From Phanerodontia chrysosporium (Eukaryota > Basidiomycota > Agaricomycetes > Polyporales > Phanerochaetaceae): 64,000 nt of DNA. A model generated the notes under the pieces. It was not told where the DNA came from. It did not search any database and saw nothing but the letters and a program-made list of their open reading frames with translations. Each line of letters begins with the position of its first letter. The stretch's first letter is position 1. The stretch covers positions 1 to 64,000 of the forward strand of contig MJGA01000063.1 in NCBI GenBank assembly GCA_001910725.1. Direction: 5' to 3'. Of this stretch, positions 35,118-64,000 are shown piece after piece. The position numbers were made by a program, and so were the translations under genes.

Positions 35118-36360
35118 AAACCCCCGAGCTGCTTTTGTATCAGAGCCAGCTGATCACGGAGGGCGGCGATCGCGGCAGCTTGGTCGTCAGACGAGCTGCC
35201 AGAAGACGAGGAGGCCGGAGACGAGGAGTCCTGTGACGAGGTATCCGAAGACGAGGCGCGGACGGCGGCGGTAGCGGGGGCGGTTCTCGGCTTGCCCTCG
35301 AGGCGAGCGCGACAGACGCGGGACCAGTGACCCTTCTTGCCGCAATGGTTGCAAACCGAGTCGCGGTGAACGGGGTCCGTGGACTTGTGGGACTTCGAGC
35401 CGCAGACCTTGCAGCGATCCTTCATGACAGCGTCGAACTGGCGCTTGAGATCCGTGCCGGTGAGACCCTTAAACAGCTCGTCGATGTTCGCGGCGTCGAT
35501 GTCCATCGCGTTCGGGTCGCGGAAGGCGCGCGCCGACGAGCTAGCCGGAGACGAGGACGTCTTGCCCTGCTGTGCCAGGAGGTCTTGCGAGAGCTTGTCC
35601 TTCGACCGGTCGACGGCGAAACCCGCGTTCTTGAGCTCGTCGTACGTCTCGGGGCCTTTGCCGGTAGCGGGGTTGACCATATACGAGATCCGCTCGAGGT
35701 AGTCTTTATTAAACTTCGTCCGTAGCCGGGCTGCCAGGTCTTCCGGGGTGAGCTTCGTACGACCGGCGAGGGCTTGGAACTCCGCGAAGAACTCCGCGAA
35801 CTGACGATTGCCTTGCGTGCACGCCTGTAGCTTGCTGAGGGCCTCGGCCTTCTCGTCGACGGGCTCGAACCGGTTCTTGAAAGCCTCCCAGAACTGGGTG
35901 CGGGAACCTCCGAACAACTGAGTGCCGTCTGCCGCTTGCTCGATGTACTGCCGTGCCCATTCGGCGGCTTCGTCCTGCATGAAGGAGAGGGCGCCAACGA
36001 TCCACTTCTGGCCGTCTACCAAGATCTTGCCGGTGTTTGCGTCCCGCTCGAGGTTACCGTTGACGTCGCGCTTGCCGAATTTCTCCGGCTGCCCGTCGGC
36101 GTAGATGCGATAGGCGGCACGGAAGAGACGGGCCGTGTCCGAACCTTTCCCTTTGAACGGCATGGGCTTCTCGACGAAGGGGAGCTCCTTGTTGGCATTG
36201 ACCGTCGCGTTGACCGTTGTCCGATTGGCGCCAATAGTCTGGGCCAGAGTGTTAACCGTGTTCGTGAGCTGCGTCATAGCCTGAGCCATCTGCAGGAGGG
36301 CAGCGGAGATGGGGTCGGGGGAGCCGGGCCGGGAGGCGCTCCACCAGGAGTGCTTGACAT
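35111..36360 (-). CDS. Gypsy copy 1 gag, with one frameshift
   Basis: It starts at ATG 36360 (MSSTPGG). A run of five Gs at 36317-36321 replaces six in copy 2 and breaks the frame; downstream the gag frame is open to 35111. The retrotransposon gag domain is followed by two cysteine motifs (CKVCGSKSH, then CNHCGKKGHWSRVC) and a Ser-rich tail. Capsid and nucleocapsid function is inferred from family. The AUG is the first one on the unspliced RNA apart from one inside the LTR intron. Confidence 0.88.
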
Positions 36361-36790
36361 GTTGGGGGGACGGGGAGTATTGGCTCCTGAGTGAGCGCGA
36401 GAGAGATCGAGGGGCGAAGGGACTGGTTCGTGATCGGAGAGGACGGAGCCGAGCGATGTCTCGGGAGACGAGTGGTGGCTGCTGTCCGGGGGACTGCGGT
36501 CGGGAGTATTCGGGGTGGTGGCGGAAGCGCGGGCAAATTCTAGCCGTTGCACGAAATGAGGTCGTTCGAACTGTGTTTCTCGGTCGCTAGGCGGAACCGG
36601 GAGTAGCGGAGGGGCAGTCTCTCGATAAGGGCAGGGCTGCTGACTGCACTCCCTGGCTTCCCGAGACCCGTTGTTTTCCTCGACGTGGAGGTCAGCGGGA
36701 AGAGTGACGCCGTTCTCTGTGGTTCGCCCGAAGAAGTGCGGACAATTCGAACAGTCGAAATCCAGAGCGACAGAAGATGTATTTTATAAA

Positions 36791-37541
36791 CTAGTCGAAA
36801 TAACCAGCCTCGTACACAATGTTCAGCTGCCCTACGATACGGCGGAAGTTTCGCCTTAAACCGATGAACGGAATGTCACCAATTTGAGCGAGACCGAGCT
36901 CGTATTGGTGCCACTCCTTAAACGTGGTGGTGGGGGCGAGGCGGCTGAGCTCGGCGCGGATTTGGCGAAGTCGTTCGAGCAGGAGATGGAAGTGGTGGGC
37001 GTGGTCACTGTTGACGATGTGGAGCAGGTCGACTTCCTCGACGACCTTGAGACGCTTGATGGTGGCGTCGAGCTTGGGCGTGAAGATGCCGACGAGGTCG
37101 GTAGGGGAGTACTTCGGGATATCGATGCCGATGGGCTTGCGGGCGATGGGCTCGTACGTCGGGGCGGCGCTGAGGCGCTCTGCCAAACTGAGCTTCGAGG
37201 AGGAGGCGGCTACGGTGGCCTGGGCTTCTTGCGCCTCTCGTTGGCGCTGCTCGCGGATGCGGTTGCCTACGCGTTGTTCGGCCTCACGAGCCTCGCGAAC
37301 GGCGGTCCAGTTGATGGAGGGGACGGAGGGTGGAGGCTGGGGGAGCGTGGACACGTACTTGACGACCGCCTTGACTTTGCGGTCCGTCCACTTGACGGGG
37401 TTACCGGCCTCGCGACGACGTTGGAGGCGGTCGAAAATGTGTTGGGGGATGTGGTCCTTGAGCCGGACGTCTTTCGGCACTGTGAGGTAAGGACCTTAGC
37501 AACGTGCACGGAGTGAGCAGGCTGCTCGACTACGACGTACT
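36791..37541 (-). CDS. Gypsy copy 1 ORF1, extra protein upstream of gag; start codon made by splicing
   Basis: The ORF has no AUG of its own. Removing the intron 37540-37480 (donor GTACGT, acceptor CTCACAG) joins A at 37541 to TG at 37479-37478 and creates AUG followed by PKDVR, giving 229 aa and stop TAG. The protein is charged and mostly helical, with WTDRKVKAVVKYVSTLP, a Gln/Arg/Glu-rich helix, KPIGIDIPKYSPTDLVGIF and a conserved C-terminal third (TTTFKEWHQYELGLAQIGDI). There is no zinc knuckle, protease or transmembrane segment, so it is not an obvious env. It aligns along its whole length with copy 2's ORF1, with one 12-residue indel. I do not recognise a family. It ends in the same frame that later leads into gag. 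Confidence 0.8.
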
Positions 37542-37634
37542 CGCTTTAAACGGAGGGGATAAACTTTTTTAAACGGGTTTTGGGGGAGCGGTAGGGAAGG
37601 AATTGCCTAGGGCACCCAAGAGATCTCGACCTAA

Positions 37635-38329
37635 TGTCGCGGAGCTGGGGCTCAACGCTACACGAGGGAGGACGGATGGGGACGACGACGACTGGGCGCA
37701 GCGGAGCGAATCACGCGGCAACGAACTAACTTGTGCAGCTGTCCGTATTGACCAAGATATCATTAGCAGACTATTCTACTATACAAGCGAGGGCTTACCT
37801 GTCCGTATTGACCAAGAGGTCGAGATGACGGACAGGAGCGAGAGGTGCTACCTATATATACTACAGGAGTTCAGGGCAGGCTGTACGATTACCTAAGCTG
37901 ATGGGCAGTGCTCAGCATAGCCAGCGAGGCTGCGACGCGGGCTGCGCGGCGGGGCTGTGCTGGGGCTATGTCACGAGGCTGTGTCAGCTGGCAGTGTCTC
38001 GAGGCTGCGTCGGGCCGAGGCTGTATCATCAGGCTGATCAGCTCGGCGTGTCTCGGCGAGGGGAGTCATCAGGGATGACAGTGCCTCCTCGGCGATCCGG
38101 GGAACCGGTTGCAAGGCAGACCGGTGATCCGGGCAGTGTCTGAGCGCGCAGCGGGATGCGCTGGCGTCTAGGGGTGATGCGCCATCAGGGCGCTGGCGCT
38201 GAATGGCCAGGCGCTGAGTGTGGGCGGCTAGGACTCCAGACGGCGCGAGGGCTGCTCGCCCGTTGGATTAATCGAGGAAAATGGCCAAAAATCGGCGAAA
38301 AATAGGGCGACACCGTCACATCCGTGACA
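37635..38329 (-). repeat. Gypsy copy 1, 5' LTR with promoter and leader intron
   Basis: 695 bp. A TATATATA run at about 37852-37860 is the likely core promoter on the minus strand. An intron (GTAAGC to GGACAG) occupies 37798-37739 and is bounded by direct copies of TTGGTCAATACGGACAG. Confidence 0.93.
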
Positions 38330-58300: not shown

Positions 58301-58995
58301 TGTCACGGATGTGACGGTGCTGCCCTATTTTTCGCCGATTTTTGGCTATTTTCCTCGATTAATCCAACGGGCGAGCAGCCCTCGCGCCGTCTGGAGTCCT
58401 AGCCGCCCACACTCAGCGCCTGGCCACTCAGCGCCAGCGCCCTGATGGCGCATCACCCCTAGACGCCAGCGCATCCCGCTGCGCGTTCAGACACCGCCCG
58501 GATCACCGGTCTGCCTTGCAACCGGTTCCCCGGATCGCCGAGGAGGCACTGTCATCCCTGATGACTCCCCTCGCCGAGACACGCCGAGCTGATCAGCCTG
58601 ATGACACAGCCTCGGCCCGACGCAGCCTCGAGACACTGCCAGCTGACACAGCCTCGTGACATAGCCCCCGCACAGCCTCGCCGCGCAGCCCGCGTCGCAG
58701 CCTCGCTGGCTATGCTAAGCACTGCCCATCAGCTTAGGTAATCGTACAGCCTGCCCTAGAGTACTGTAGTATATAAGGGTAGCTCCCCTCGCTCCTGTCC
58801 GTCATCTCGACCTTTTGGTCAATACGGACAGGTAAGCCCGTCGTTTGTACTGTAGCATACAACACTAATACAACTTGGTCAATACGGACAGCTGAGCAAG
58901 TTTGTTCGTCGCTGCGTGACTCGCTCCGCCGCGCCTCGTCGTCGACCTCCCCACTTGCCCTCCCTCGTGAAGCGTTGAGCCCTAGCTCCGCGACA
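58301..58995 (+). repeat. Gypsy copy 2, 5' LTR with promoter and LTR intron
   Basis: TATATAAG at about 58769-58776 is the core promoter. An intron occupies 58832-58891 (donor GTAAGC, branch CTAAT, acceptor GGACAG), bounded by 17-bp repeats at 58815-58831 and 58875-58891. Confidence 0.93.
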
Positions 58996-59088
58996 TTAGG
59001 TCGAGATCTCTTGGGTGCCCTAGGCAATTCCTTCCCTACCGCTCCCCCAAATACCGTTTAAAAAAGTTTATCCCCTCCGATTAAAGCG

Positions 59089-59874
59089 AGTACGTCGTAG
59101 TCGAGCAGCCCGCTCACTCCGTACACGTTGCTAAGGCTTGCTTTCGCAGTGCCAAAAGACGTTCGTCGAAGCGCGGCCTCTCCGCCCCCGAACGCACCCT
59201 TGCTTAAAGACCACATCCCCAAACGCATTTTCGACCGCCTCCAACGTCGTCGCGAGGCCGGCAACCCTGTCAAGTGGACTGACCGCAAAGTCAAGGCGGT
59301 CATCAAGTACGTCTCTACGCTCCCGACGCCTCCACCCTCCGTTCCCTCCATCAACTGGACCGCCGTCCGAGAAGCCCGCGAAGCCGAACAACGCGTAGGC
59401 AACCGCATCCGCGAGCAGCGCCAGCGCGAGGCGCAAGAAGCCCAGGCCGCCGTAGCCGCCTCCTCCTCTAAGCTCAGTTTGGCAGAGCGCCTCAGCGCCG
59501 CCCCGACGTACGAGCCCATCGCCCGCAAGCCCATCGGCATCGACATCCCGAAGTACTCCCCCACCGACCTCGTCGGCATCTTCACGCCCAAGCTCGACGC
59601 GACCATCAAGCGTCTCAAGGCCGTCGAAGAAGTCGACCTCTTCCACCTCGTCAGCAGCGACCGCGCGCACGGCGTCTGCCAGCTGCTCGAACGTCTTCGG
59701 CAGATTCGCAACGAGCTCGGCCGCCTCGCTCCTACCACTACGTTTAAGGAGTGGCATCAGTACGAGCTTGGACTAGCTCAGATTGGTGACATTCCGTTCA
59801 TCGGTTTAAGGCGCAATTTCCGCCGTATCGTAGGAGAGCTGGACATAGTGTACCGGGCCGGGTATTTCGATTAA
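59089..59874 (+). CDS. Gypsy copy 2 ORF1; start codon made by splicing
   Basis: The intron 59090-59149 (GTACGT to TTTCGCAG) splits the start codon: A at 59089 and TG at 59150-59151. The spliced frame reads MPKDVRR and runs 241 aa to TAA at 59872-59874. Upstream of the join the ORF1 frame has no AUG, and there is no internal AUG in any frame from 58741 to 60303. The AUG context is favourable (G at -3). The protein matches copy 1 throughout, including a basic N-terminal region (LQRRREAGNPVKW), a Gln/Arg/Glu helix and the C-terminal block. It is probably a regulatory or RNA/DNA-binding element protein, but nothing in it proves that. Confidence 0.82.
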
Positions 59875-60303
59875 GTTTACAAATACATTTCTGTCGCTCT
59901 GGATTTCGATTGCTCGAACTGCCTGCACTTCTTTGGGCGAACTACAGAGAACGGTGTCACTGCTCCCGCTGATCTCCACGTCGAAGAGAACAACGGGTCT
60001 CGAGAAGCCAGAGAGTGCAGCCAACAGCCCTGCCCCCATCGAGAGACTGCCCCTCCGTTACTCCCGGTTCCGCCTAGCGACCGAGAAACACAATTCGAGC
60101 GCCCCCGTTTCGCGCAACGGCTAGAATTTGCCCGCGCTTCCGCCACCACCCCGAATACTCCCGACCGCAGTCCCCTGGACAGCAGCCACCACTCGTCTCC
60201 CGAGACATCGCTCGGCTCCGTCCTCTCCGACCACGAACCCGCTCCCTCGCCGCTTAATCTCTCCCGCGCTCAATCAGGAGCCAACACTCCCCGTCCCCCC
60301 AAT
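59875..60303 (+). other. Open in-frame spacer between ORF1 stop and gag AUG
   Basis: After the single ORF1 stop the same frame stays open for 143 codons straight into gag, in a Pro/Ser/Thr-rich stretch with CSNCLHFFGRTTENGV near its start. Copy 1 keeps the reading through two compensating 1-nt indels. It could be an N-terminal gag extension made by stop readthrough, or simply AUG-free leader. Confidence 0.55.
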
Positions 60304-61554
60304 ATGTCAAGCACTCCCGGCGGAGCGCCTCCTGGCCCGGCTCCCCCCGACCCCATCTCCGCTGCTCTCCTGCAAATGGCCCAGGCGATGACGCAGCTCA
60401 CAAACACGGTTAACACTCTGGCCCAAACTATTGGCGCCAATCGGACAACGGTCAACGCAACGGTCAACGCCAACAAGGAGCTCCCCTTCGTCGAGAAGCC
60501 CGTCCCGTTCAAAGGGAAAGGTTCGGACACGGCCCGTCTCTTCCGCGCCGCCTACCGCATCTACGCCGATGGACAGCCGGAGAAATTCGGCAAGCGCGAT
60601 GTCAACGGCAACCTCCAGCGGGACCCCGAATCTGGCAAGATCTTGGTAGATGGCCAAAAGTGGATCGTCGGCGCTCTCTCCTTCATGCAGGATGAAGCGG
60701 CCGAATGGGCACGGCAGTACATCGAGCAAGCGGCAGACGGCACTCAGATATTCGACGGCTCTCGCGCTACGTTCTGGGAGGCCTTCAAGAACCGGTTCGA
60801 GCCCATGGACGAGAAGGCCGAGGCTCTCAGCAAGCTGCAAGCTTGTACGCAGGGGAACCGTCGGTTCGCGGAGTTTTTTGCGGAGTTCCAAGCTCTCGCC
60901 GGCCGCACGAAGCTCACCCCGGAAGACCTGGCAGCCCGGCTACGGACGAAGTTTAATAAGGACTACCTCGAGCGGATCTCGTACATGGTCAACCCCGCTA
61001 CCGGCAAAGGCCCCGAGACGTACGACGAGCTTAAGAACGCGGGTTTCGCCGTCGACCGGTCGAAGGACAAGCTCTCGCAAGACCTCCTGGCACAGCAAGG
61101 CAAGACGTCCTCGACTCCGGCTAGCTCGTCAGCGCGCGCCTTCCGCGACCCGAACGCGATGGACATCGACGCCGCGAACATTGACGAGCTGTTTAAGGGT
61201 CTCACTGGCACGGATCTCAAGCGCCAGTTCGACGCCGTCATGAGGGACCGCTGCAAGGTCTGCGGCTCGAAGTCCCACAAGTCCACGGACCCCGTTCACC
61301 GCGACTCGGTCTGCAACCACTGCGGCAAGAAGGGTCACTGGTCCCGTGTCTGTCGTGCTCGCCTCGAAGGCAAGCCGAGAACCGCCCCCGCTACCGCCGC
61401 CGTCCGCGCCTCGTCTTCGGATACCTCGTCGCAGGACTCCTCGTCTCCGGCCTCCTCGTCTTCTGGCAGCTCGTCTGACGACCAAGCTGCCGCGATCGCC
61501 GCCCTCCGTGATCAGCTGGCTCTGATACAAAAGCAGCTCGGGGGTTTTGCTTAA
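60304..61554 (+). CDS. Gypsy copy 2 gag, intact
   Basis: 416 aa from MSSTPGG. It has a retrotransposon gag domain (RLFRAAYRIYADGQPEKFG, FWEAFKNRFEP, KLQACTQGNRRFAEFF), a first cysteine motif (CKVCGSKSH), a CCHC knuckle (CNHCGKKGHWSRVC) and a Ser-rich tail. It forms the virus-like particle and binds genomic RNA, by family. Its AUG is the first on unspliced RNA. It ends at TAA 61552-61554, four nucleotides after a slippery GGGTTTT. Confidence 0.94.
   Translation: MSSTPGGAPPGPAPPDPISAALLQMAQAMTQLTNTVNTLAQTIGANRTTVNATVNANKELPFVEKPVPFKGKGSDTARLFRAAYRIYADGQPEKFGKRDVNGNLQRDPESGKILVDGQKWIVGALSFMQDEAAEWARQYIEQAADGTQIFDGSRATFWEAFKNRFEPMDEKAEALSKLQACTQGNRRFAEFFAEFQALAGRTKLTPEDLAARLRTKFNKDYLERISYMVNPATGKGPETYDELKNAGFAVDRSKDKLSQDLLAQQGKTSSTPASSSARAFRDPNAMDIDAANIDELFKGLTGTDLKRQFDAVMRDRCKVCGSKSHKSTDPVHRDSVCNHCGKKGHWSRVCRARLEGKPRTAPATAAVRASSSDTSSQDSSSPASSSSGSSSDDQAAAIAALRDQLALIQKQLGGFA
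61542..61548 (+). promoter_or_regulatory. Probable -1 ribosomal frameshift site between gag and pol
   Basis: GGGTTTT lies in the correct phase (G GGT TTT) just before GCT TAA. The pol frame is open from the slip point (TGC TTA AGG) onward. Copy 1 has the identical heptamer at 35117-35123. Confidence 0.72.
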
Positions 61555-64000
61555 GGGGCCGGAGTGACGCCGCATCGTCGGTCCCCGTTTCGTCAAGCCC
61601 GGATTCAACTCCGGCGCCTTCGCTAGAACCACAGGACATTTCTGACGTCATCCGCTCATGTAAAATATCCGTACTAGACCCTTTCTCCAACCACTACCGT
61701 GTACCAGTAAAGCTTACCGGAATCAATAAGACTATTCGCACGCCTGCAATGATTGATTCTGGAGCGACTTCACTGTTCATCCACGAGGATTTCTGTAAGC
61801 AGCACAAAATCCTCACGGTACCACTCAAGAAGGAGATCACACTGTACAACATCGACGGGACTAAGAATGAAGCAGGATCTATCACGCGCTGTGCCAGACT
61901 CCAGCTCACTGTGGGTTCATACACGTTTAAGGAAGAGTTTCTTGTCACGAACATCGGTCCGGAGGACGTCATCCTCGGACTTCCGTGGCTCAAGAAATGG
62001 AATCCGAACATCGACTGGGAAACGGGAGATGTCCAGTTTCAGCTCCGCGGCGGAGCTGGGGACACCCCGGTTTTCGGTATCCACCAGATTGACGCCAATC
62101 GCTCCGAACGCCGAGAATGGCTTCGAGCAGGCATTGTCGAGGACTCCAAGGACGAAGTCTGGATCCTCGCCGGCTACACTTACTCGCAAGCGATCGCTGT
62201 CGAAGCCAATCGCGAGAAGTACGCCAAGACGTTTGAAGAGCTGGTTCCCAAAGAGTACCACCGACACAAGAAGGTGTTCTCCGAAGAGGAATCACACCGC
62301 CTTCCGAAGCATCAGCCCTGGGATCACGCGATAGATCTCGTTCCGGACGCCCCGGCCTCGATCAAATCGAAGGTTTATCCCATGTCCCCGATCGAGAACG
62401 AAGAGCTACAACGATTCATCGACGACGCACTCGCCAAGGGCTATATCGTCCCCAGCAAGTCTCCGATCGCCTCCCCTGTCTTCTTCATCAAGAAAAAGGA
62501 CGGCAAGCTCCGGTTTATCCAAGACTATCGCAAACTCAACGACATCACCGTGAAGAATCGGTACCCCCTCCCGCTCGCCTCCGACATCATCGGGAAGCTC
62601 CAGGGCGCTAAGATCTTCACTAAGTTCGACGTCCGTTGGGGCTACAACAACGTCCGGATTAAGGAAGGTGATGAGTGGAAAGCCGCCTTCGTCACCAACC
62701 GCGGCCTCTTCGAGCCCAGAGTCATGTACTTCGGTTTGTGCAACAGCCCTGCTACGTTCCAGGCCCTCATGAACCACATCTTCGCCGACCTCATTGCTGA
62801 AAGCAAGGTCGCGGTCTACCTCGACGACATACTCATCTGGTCGAACGATCTCGCTTCGCATCGGAAGATTGTTCACGAGGTCCTGGCACGCCTCGCCAAG
62901 TACGATCTATACCTTCGGCCCGAAAAGTGCGAGTTCGAGCGCTCAGAGATCGAGTATCTTGGGCTCCTCATCAGCGAAGGACAAGTCGGCATGGACCCCG
63001 GCAAGGTTAAGGCTGTAGCCGAGTGGCCGACCCCGAAGAACCTCAAAGACGTACGAGGCTTTGTCGGGTTCGCCAACTTTTACCGCCGCTTCATCAAGGA
63101 CTTCTCAAAGATCTGCCGCCCGCTGCACGATCTGACGAAGAAGGATACTCCGTTTAATTGGGGTCCCGCACAGGCAGAAGCCTTCGAGACGCTCAAGCGC
63201 GCTTTCACGACTCAGCCCGTGCTCGCCATGTGGAGCATTGATCGGCCGACTCGCGTCGAGACCGATGCTTCTGGTTACGCCACCGGAGGAGTCATAGCCC
63301 AACGCAACCCTGAAGATGGTCTCTGGCATCCAATCGCGTATCGCTCGCAAACCATGAGCCCCGCCGAGCGGAACTACGAGATCTGGGACCGTGAGATGCT
63401 TGCAATCATCGAAGCTCTCAAGGACTGGCGCCAGTTCCTCGAAGGTCTTCCGGAGCCTTTTGAGATCTGGACCGATCACCAGAACCTCCAGTACTGGAAG
63501 ACTGCGCAGAATCTCACGCGGCGACAAGCCCGGTGGGCCTCCTACCTCGCCGAGTACGACTTCCGCATTATCCACCGCCCGGGCAAGACACACCTCCTCG
63601 CCGACCCGCTCTCCCGGCCCTCCTCGCTGCACGTCTCGGACGAAGAAGACAACCGCTCACAAGTGGTGCTGAAGCCGGAACTGTTTAAGATAGCCGCCAC
63701 GGCAGCTTTCGCAAACCCCTCCCCCCTCGAGAAGCGCATTCGCGACTGCTCCGAAAAGGAAAAGGAAGTCGCAGACGCTCTGCAGGTTCTCCGGACCAAG
63801 GGGCCCCGCAAGCTGCGCAACGGCGTTCTCGAATGGGAAGAAGACAACGGCCTTCTGTACTACCATGGGAAAGTCTACGTGCCGAGCAGTGCCGCGCTGC
63901 GCAACGACGTCATTAAGTCTTGCCATGACGCGCCGACCGCCGGACATCCTGGGAAGCACACCACCCTCGAGTTAGTCTCTCGGTACTATTGGTGGCCGCG
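61548..64000 (+). CDS. Gypsy copy 2 pol, 5' part, intact to window edge
   Basis: One open frame of about 817 codons. It begins with a Ser/Pro-rich link (SSPDSTPAPSLEPQD), then protease (AMIDSGATSLFIHEDF), RT with YLDD (VAVYLDDILIWSND), RNase H (VETDASGYATGG, DREMLAIIEALKDW) and the start of integrase (HDAPTAGHPGKHTTLELV). The six-C run at about 63720-63725 keeps the frame that copy 1 loses. No AUG begins the frame, so frameshifting from gag is needed. Confidence 0.92.

Follow-up and report, generated by a model that had tools for sequence, protein, structure and literature searches.

How do ribosomes reach the gag gene of a retrotransposon whose first AUG lies 1,500 nucleotides (nt) behind the probable start of its RNA, and how is the long open reading frame (ORF) in between translated when the DNA provides no AUG for it? 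The question is raised by two copies of a Gypsy-type long terminal repeat (LTR) retrotransposon in a 64,000-nt stretch of DNA from Phanerodontia chrysosporium (GenBank assembly GCA_001910725.1, contig MJGA01000063.1, positions 1 to 64,000), here called the window. Copy 1 lies on the minus strand (36358..38329) and copy 2 starts at 58301 on the plus strand; positions and strand below are those of copy 2 unless another copy is named. The initial annotation of this DNA proposed that a small intron creates the start codon of the upstream ORF (ORF1), that AUGs have been purged so that scanning ribosomes can reach gag, and that splicing decides which of the two one RNA produces. We are close to certain, from the sequence comparisons described here, that the absence of ATG from this tract is due to selection. 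As an overall explanation, AUG-purged scanning combined with a splice-made start for ORF1 is the one we favor, with somewhat better than even confidence.

An AUG-free tract between the predicted transcript start and gag

Copy 2 has no ATG in any frame between 58712, in U3, and 60304, where gag begins, so that the reported emptiness of 58741-60303 stands. The roughly 24 ATGs said to be expected there by chance were an overstatement, that figure being simply 1563/64; 14.9 are expected from base composition and 7.3 from dinucleotide composition. Also overlooked was where the depletion starts: the tract is real, but its depletion begins at the predicted transcript start at 58804. From that point to gag there are 0 ATGs in 1,500 nt, against an expectation of 14.1 by base composition and 6.7 by dinucleotides, and the flanks of the purged region in copy 2 contain 5 in 503 nt of U3 (58301-58803) and 13 in 1,251 nt of gag. 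The copy 2 tract (1,592 nt) is the longest ATG-free run on the plus strand of the window, the runner-up having 864 nt, and the copy 1 tract (1,403 nt) is the longest on the minus strand, where the runner-up has 634 nt.

We aligned 40 copies of the family, namely, the two in the window and 38 from the same genome, a 39.0-Mb assembly of 145 contigs in which the window is contig C106. Scoring covered 40 of 373 candidates, and one truncated place was left out. Over 58893-60303, 33 of the 40 copies are ATG-free; divided by part, this holds for all 40 from the U5 exon through the leader to 59089, for 35 in ORF1, and for 37 in 59875-60303. Four of the seven ATG-bearing copies (L037, L042, L045, and L046) have a broken frame in the stretch, as do 8 of the 33 ATG-free ones. 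A family alignment had been put forward with the initial annotation as the comparison that might overturn it; in the 40 copies, the split start codon is conserved and most copies lack ATG, but seven have one.

Selection against AUG

Selection against AUG between the transcript start and gag is supported by the alignment, by a test of individual sites, and by homologues. The site test considered third positions in ORF1 and in an N-terminal extension of gag (described below) that are one synonymous base away from an out-of-frame ATG. The ATG-making base is present in at least two copies at 0 of 18 such sites, compared with 38 of 74 control sites (Fisher p = 2.2e-5; 39 copies). Past the gag AUG, at-risk sites do vary to the ATG-making base (7 of 9, with 6 of 21 for the gag controls, in the same number of copies). 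In nine homologues of ORF1 taken from other sequence sets, the 2,185 residues include no internal Met, whereas 12 gag homologues have Met at a rate that would predict about 36. The codon-shuffling check that had been suggested, applied to copy 2 alone, is weak and falls short of significance, with P values of 0.064 for off-frame ATGs in ORF1, 0.13 for the extension, and 0.83 for gag.

Several observations weigh against this conclusion. The pol control in the codon shuffle reaches 0.066, similar to the value for ORF1. Compared by site over 58893-60303, ACG-to-ATG changes are not significantly rarer than ACG-to-ACA changes (5 versus 10, p = 0.30, without L046), and with L046 included, the numbers are 10 and 10. 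The forbidden T does occur in ORF1 twice, each time in a single copy, and in three copies (L029, L036, and L044), the stretch has an ATG while its frames are intact. In addition, the copies are related by descent, which makes counts of copies nonindependent. Scanning of ribosomes to gag is the likely reason for the purge.

A proposed split start codon for ORF1

As first described, removal of 59090-59149 joins A59089 to T59150 and G59151 and thereby opens a frame of 241 codons, of which exon 2 (59150..59874) ends in a TAA stop at 59872-59874. The same split is found in copy 1 (A37541, TG at 37479-37478, with a 61-nt intron), whose one extra ATG (37763-37761) is indeed located inside the LTR intron. 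In the 40-copy alignment, the donor that follows the first base of the start codon (A|GTACGT) is intact in 39 copies and the acceptor (CAG|TG) in all 40. Between them stand a branch-like CTRA motif at 59131-59134, read as CTAA or CTGA, and a pyrimidine-rich 3' tract that varies in length and sequence, and the whole measures 60 to 61 nt in nearly all copies. A conserved 5' site, branch, and AG are what characterize a spliceosomal intron at the level of sequence, and we regard the 60-nt intron as very probably real. Genome-wide, the split-start pattern GCGAGTACGT-N38..52-CAGTGCCRAARGA has 111 exact matches, and the reversed-pattern control has 0.

An alternative that does without splicing is initiation of ORF1 at the in-frame GUG at 59149-59151, which also has G at -3 and would act as an infrequent non-AUG start on one and the same RNA, the intron-like sequence being incidental. 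That GTG is conserved in 40/40 copies, and the AUU start of ORF I of rice tungro bacilliform virus offers an analogy. The nine ORF1 homologues (49 to 83% identity, 237 to 262 residues) begin at the equivalent residue, all with MPKD, but this does not decide between AUG and GUG because a gene caller that accepts GTG would give the same start. Splice constraints would be superfluous for a GUG start, and the donor, the CTRA motif with its A/G exchange only, the pyrimidine tract, and the 60- to 61-nt length together look like such constraints, which makes this alternative quite improbable.

Probable transcript start and self-priming, and a putative U5 intron

A putative primer-binding site, AGGTCGAGAT, is found at 58998..59007, 2 nt 3' of the LTR, and its exact 10-nt complement, ATCTCGACCT, is located at 58804..58813. 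Because such a pairing is the layout of self-primed elements, we infer that the transcript starts at 58804 and that its 5' end would serve as the self-primer. A TATA-like sequence (tatataagg) is present at about 58770, some 30 nt upstream.

The LTR contains a putative intron of its own in U5 (58832..58891, CAG|GTAAGC...CGGACAG|C), flanked by the repeat CTTGGTCAATACGGACAG. Scored over 58831-58892, it has an ATG in 24 of 39 copies, at several positions, and if retained, these ATGs would open frames of 2 to 77 codons that differ among copies; the U5 intron is therefore presumably removed from translated RNA. Exact patterns in the genome gave 299 LTR sites with the U5 intron donor versus 7 without the intron. 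In one element (L048 and L049; G000:C2:164.1-171.7 kb), the two LTRs are identical over the 630 nt compared. The U5 intron, and precisely that, is missing from both; the 60-nt intron is kept, and the first ATG comes 1,399 nt downstream of the start. If the proposed Gag mRNA were reverse transcribed, DNA of this form would result, an agreement that is supportive only; against it stands the fact that deletion between the flanking repeats can explain intron-less LTRs equally well. The 5' LTR of L041 lacks the U5 intron as well. An intron that is absent from translated RNA and kept in most of the RNA that is reverse transcribed would suggest separate pools of translated and packaged RNA.

A probable N-terminal extension of Gag

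The initial annotation took the gag AUG at 60304 as the place where translation starts when the 60-nt intron stays in. ATG 60304 is the first after the tract, as claimed, and is conserved in 40/40 copies, but the gag frame is coding already upstream of it, back to a CTG at 59899. Codon-position polymorphism marks the upstream part as coding in the gag frame. Over the 135 AUG-free codons at 59899..60303, which are under purifying selection, the ratio of nonsynonymous to synonymous substitution rates (dN/dS) is 0.155 (36 copies), with 0.231, 0.117, and 0.121 for three parts of it; the other two frames give 2.29 and 1.63, and the start of gag gives 0.076. A distant gag homologue, P0016 (37% identity), has a related extension with a CxxQPCPHR motif; past its first residue, the earliest Met of this protein is one close to where gag of copy 2 has its AUG. 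In copy 2, this motif is located at about 60016-60042 and is possibly a small metal-binding motif.

The proposed start of the extended protein, the CTG at 59899..59901 in GTCGC[T/A]CTGGAT, is invariant in 40/40 copies, in all of which a gag-frame stop is found 6 to 37 codons upstream; in 5 of the 40, no other near-cognate codon intervenes. Since the third base is invariant in 6 of the 11 Leu codons of the extension, invariance of the CTG does not by itself constitute proof. We nevertheless think it fairly likely that Gag initiates at CUG 59899, and the simplest reading would be that there are two Gags, a long one begun at the CUG and another begun at the AUG. The extension is free of AUG in every frame in copy 2 and in most copies, and ribosomes therefore seem to traverse it by scanning until they reach 60304.

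The copies have frame-changing indels in the segment from the ORF1 stop to about 59892, and ORF1 and gag are found in all three relative frames. We accordingly rejected readthrough or frameshifting from ORF1 into Gag, given relative frames of 0, 1, and 2 among copies and the gag-frame stop upstream of the CTG in 40/40. Gag might also be made by termination and reinitiation after ORF1, for which the distance of about 25 nt from the ORF1 stop to the CTG would be convenient and which allows the intervening frame to vary between 0, 1, and 2, or it might be made from an internal ribosome entry site. Neither route requires that AUGs be purged from every frame of ORF1 and the extension, and the purge starts at the predicted transcript start and stops at the gag AUG, so that we consider both very improbable. 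Two other splicing schemes were read for and set aside. For a fusion of ORF1 to the extension by splicing, reading turned up no donor whose phase fits the nearest AG that resembles an acceptor (at about 59947). An A|TG acceptor that would give the extension its own start was sought as well, but the only AG|TG spotted there puts its TG, at 60016, out of frame.

A second Gypsy family with a similar layout

Three other Gypsy families were sampled, with one copy each (L057, L058, and L059). L057 (G000:C102) has an 11-nt self-primer at 1229 and a primer-binding site at 1381, and from its predicted transcript start to the gag ATG at 2530, there are 0 ATGs in 1,301 nt, against 18.9 expected from composition or 9.4 from dinucleotides. 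Its gag is preceded by a Met-less ORF of 242 residues that begins PKAAR after TTACTAG|TG (a TAG|TGCC acceptor), with CTGAC 14 nt upstream and a predicted donor of full consensus, A|GTGAGT, at 1321. The putative intron of 448 nt between them is itself ATG-free, where 3.3 (dinucleotide) to 7.5 (composition) ATGs would be expected. Compared by hhalign with the ORF1 profile, the L057 ORF aligns over 124 columns at 24% identity (probability, 78%; E = 1.8e-5), as a remote homologue. Its leader has 40 full-length matches that are 99 to 100% identical, as in a young family, and these are uninformative on conservation. The single copies of L058 and L059 do not have this layout, their longest ATG-free tracts being 435 and 522 nt.

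Alternative or constitutive splicing

In the explanation that we favor, ribosomes would enter at the cap and move along by scanning. If the RNA retains the 60-nt intron and has lost the U5 intron, they would meet no AUG for about 1.4 kb; a fraction would start at CUG 59899 and make the long Gag, and the remainder would arrive at AUG 60304 and make standard Gag and Gag-Pol. On RNA from which the 60-nt intron has been removed, the newly built AUG (59089/59150) would capture the ribosomes for ORF1. With a single promoter, the proportion of ORF1 to Gag would then depend on splicing.

The purge itself would be the same if the 60-nt intron were always removed. In that case, the ORF1 AUG (AAGCGAUGCC, G at -3) would be leaky and Gag would come from the ribosomes that pass on, much as in ORFs II and III of rice tungro bacilliform virus, and the bases at -3, G at the ORF1 AUG and A at the gag AUG, would suit such an arrangement. 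ATGs within the intron would also be tolerated, and 4 among the 100 copies listed have one (by eye). What speaks against constitutive splicing is that a search with one 21-nt pattern turned up no DNA copy that lacks the 60-nt intron, versus 111 with it, even though copies without the U5 intron exist. Presence of the 60-nt intron in all of the DNA copies found implies that RNA retaining it is reverse transcribed. The ATG-free state of the putative 448-nt intron of L057, whose donor is only predicted, argues in the same direction. On these two grounds, we prefer a switch to constitutive splicing, which we judge unlikely; that splicing acts as an alternative switch is itself favored only slightly.

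The evidence on introns also has a side that is unfavorable to the switch. The genome-wide count of 0 copies without the 60-nt intron, obtained with one 21-nt pattern allowing 2 mismatches, counts against it as well as against its rival (a 10-nt pattern for such copies proved uninformative, with 74 matches versus 47 for the control). Furthermore, at one CpG of the intron, among the 100 copies listed, 4 have the ATG-making C-to-T change and 3 the harmless G-to-A change (by eye). As these numbers are about equal, purging within the intron lends no support to its retention on the Gag mRNA.

The fullest version of our reading is one we would advance only tentatively. It holds that some fungal Gypsy elements use a translational switch in which a kept intron would give two Gags and a removed intron would give a Met-free regulatory ORF1, possibly an export or feedback factor like Rev or CERV, and that the layout may be ancient, being common to two families whose ORF1 proteins are about 25% identical.

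The ORF1 protein and the rest of the element

ORF1 of copy 2 contains no internal Met, and the frame evolves under a dN/dS of 0.09 among 36 copies. No Pfam family scored above the cut-off for ORF1, a sequence search of the PDB gave one insignificant match (E = 0.063), and no relatives of ORF1 in viral contigs were confirmed. The predicted structure is all-helical, with a mean pLDDT (predicted local distance difference test) of 68 and a pTM (predicted template modeling score) of 0.45, values too low for a function to be named. By analogy with CERV of the Cer1 element, one could guess at a regulatory role.

The element is a Ty3/Gypsy LTR retrotransposon that is probably self-primed in the manner of Tf1. 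The ends of the copy 2 5' LTR (TGTCACGG...GCGACA, 58301..58995) are taken from the LTR pair of copy 1, which is identical at 696 of 701 nt (99%) and in which both LTRs have the TG...CA form (TGTCACGG...CGACA) that flanks the element. In copy 1, on the minus strand, the LTR is at 38329-37635, ORF1 extends to about 36791, and the gag AUG is at 36360-36358. From its first AUG, gag of copy 2 comprises 416 codons (60304..61554) and matches Retrotrans_gag (PF03732, E = 4.4e-9); its only relatives with a named organism are from Phanerochaete sordida, the three longer ones at 52 to 57% identity. The pol gene (61749..63998, to the end of the window) has Pfam matches covering protease, reverse transcriptase, RNase H, and integrase, in the Ty3/Gypsy order of RVP_2, RVT_1, RT_RNaseH, and Integrase_H2C2. 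At 61508-61554, pol overlaps the end of gag in the -1 frame, and a heptamer, G GGT TTT, at 61542 in the gag frame, just 5' of the stop, is a candidate -1 frameshift site.

Some of the other copies are visibly altered. L046, L050, and L055 show by eye numerous C-to-T and G-to-A changes, as after methylation or repeat-induced mutation, and the elements on the small contigs L052, L053, and L054 appear by eye to be homopolymer compressed, perhaps from uncorrected long-read assembly. L050 to L056 were considered as more diverged copies, an idea we rejected because by eye they are decayed or homopolymer-compressed members of the copy 2 family.

Comparison with known systems

Members of the Caulimoviridae have neither LTRs nor an integrase. 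The element described here has LTRs and an Integrase_H2C2 domain and is thus not one of them, and it further differs in that the AUG of its ORF1 would exist only after splicing. A long upstream ORF without internal AUG, as in leaky scanning of the Caulimoviridae type, is nonetheless what the copies and the homologues display at the sequence level. Should our explanation be right, AUG-purged scanning as described for plant pararetroviruses would extend to LTR retrotransposons, where it would be combined with a splice-dependent start codon and a CUG-extended Gag. The sequence by itself shows how deeply selection can act within a protein, some 240 residues being kept free of internal Met to protect the translation of a downstream gene. 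The element is also a natural case in which to measure the distance that fungal ribosomes can scan and to see how an accessory protein and Gag are balanced from one promoter.

The claim that no described element has this arrangement holds in part. In the open-access literature, which mostly leaves out subscription papers, the available portions of the sources gave no LTR retrotransposon in which an ORF is purged of AUG or a start codon arises by splicing; AUG-free scanning as such is known from rice tungro bacilliform virus. For that virus, the portion of the source available reports leaky scanning across long ORFs devoid of AUG (ORFs I and II), and it predicts such scanning for badnaviruses (PMC5902531); these share with our element a long AUG-free coding region ahead of a polyprotein and an upstream non-AUG start (AUU, ORF I). 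Splicing in rice tungro bacilliform virus, in contrast, is described there as serving the distal ORF IV, and shunting is involved in addition.

Other parts of the arrangement have parallels among retroelements, again as far as the accessible text of each source goes. In the fission yeast elements Tf1 and Tj1, the primer-binding site pairs with the 5' end of the mRNA that the element itself makes, and this end primes reverse transcription (PMC4600332); here, the complementarity is 10 to 11 nt, to a 5' end that is predicted, and for Tf1/Tj1-type elements, that text mentions neither an ORF upstream of gag nor a start-making intron. The glyco-Gag of murine leukemia virus is an extended Gag begun on unspliced RNA at an in-frame CUG upstream of the Gag AUG (PMC4528783), to which the invariant in-frame CTG and the coding upstream frame of our element may correspond, its initiation there being predicted. 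Unlike the gammaretroviral protein, the translation of 59899-60303 has, by reading, no hydrophobic stretch before the Gag AUG. Cer1, a Gypsy/Ty3 element of Caenorhabditis elegans, makes its accessory protein CERV from spliced RNA and Gag and Pol from unspliced RNA (PMC10309623), a likeness in the proposed use of spliced RNA, with an AUG purge going unmentioned in the text available. BARE, a Copia element of barley, has a short facultative intron, and its RNA for translation forms a pool apart from that for replication (PMC3735527), but its splicing is described as yielding a Gag-only RNA and makes no start codon. Taken together, these comparisons place known mechanisms in a new setting rather than pointing to a new kind of mechanism.

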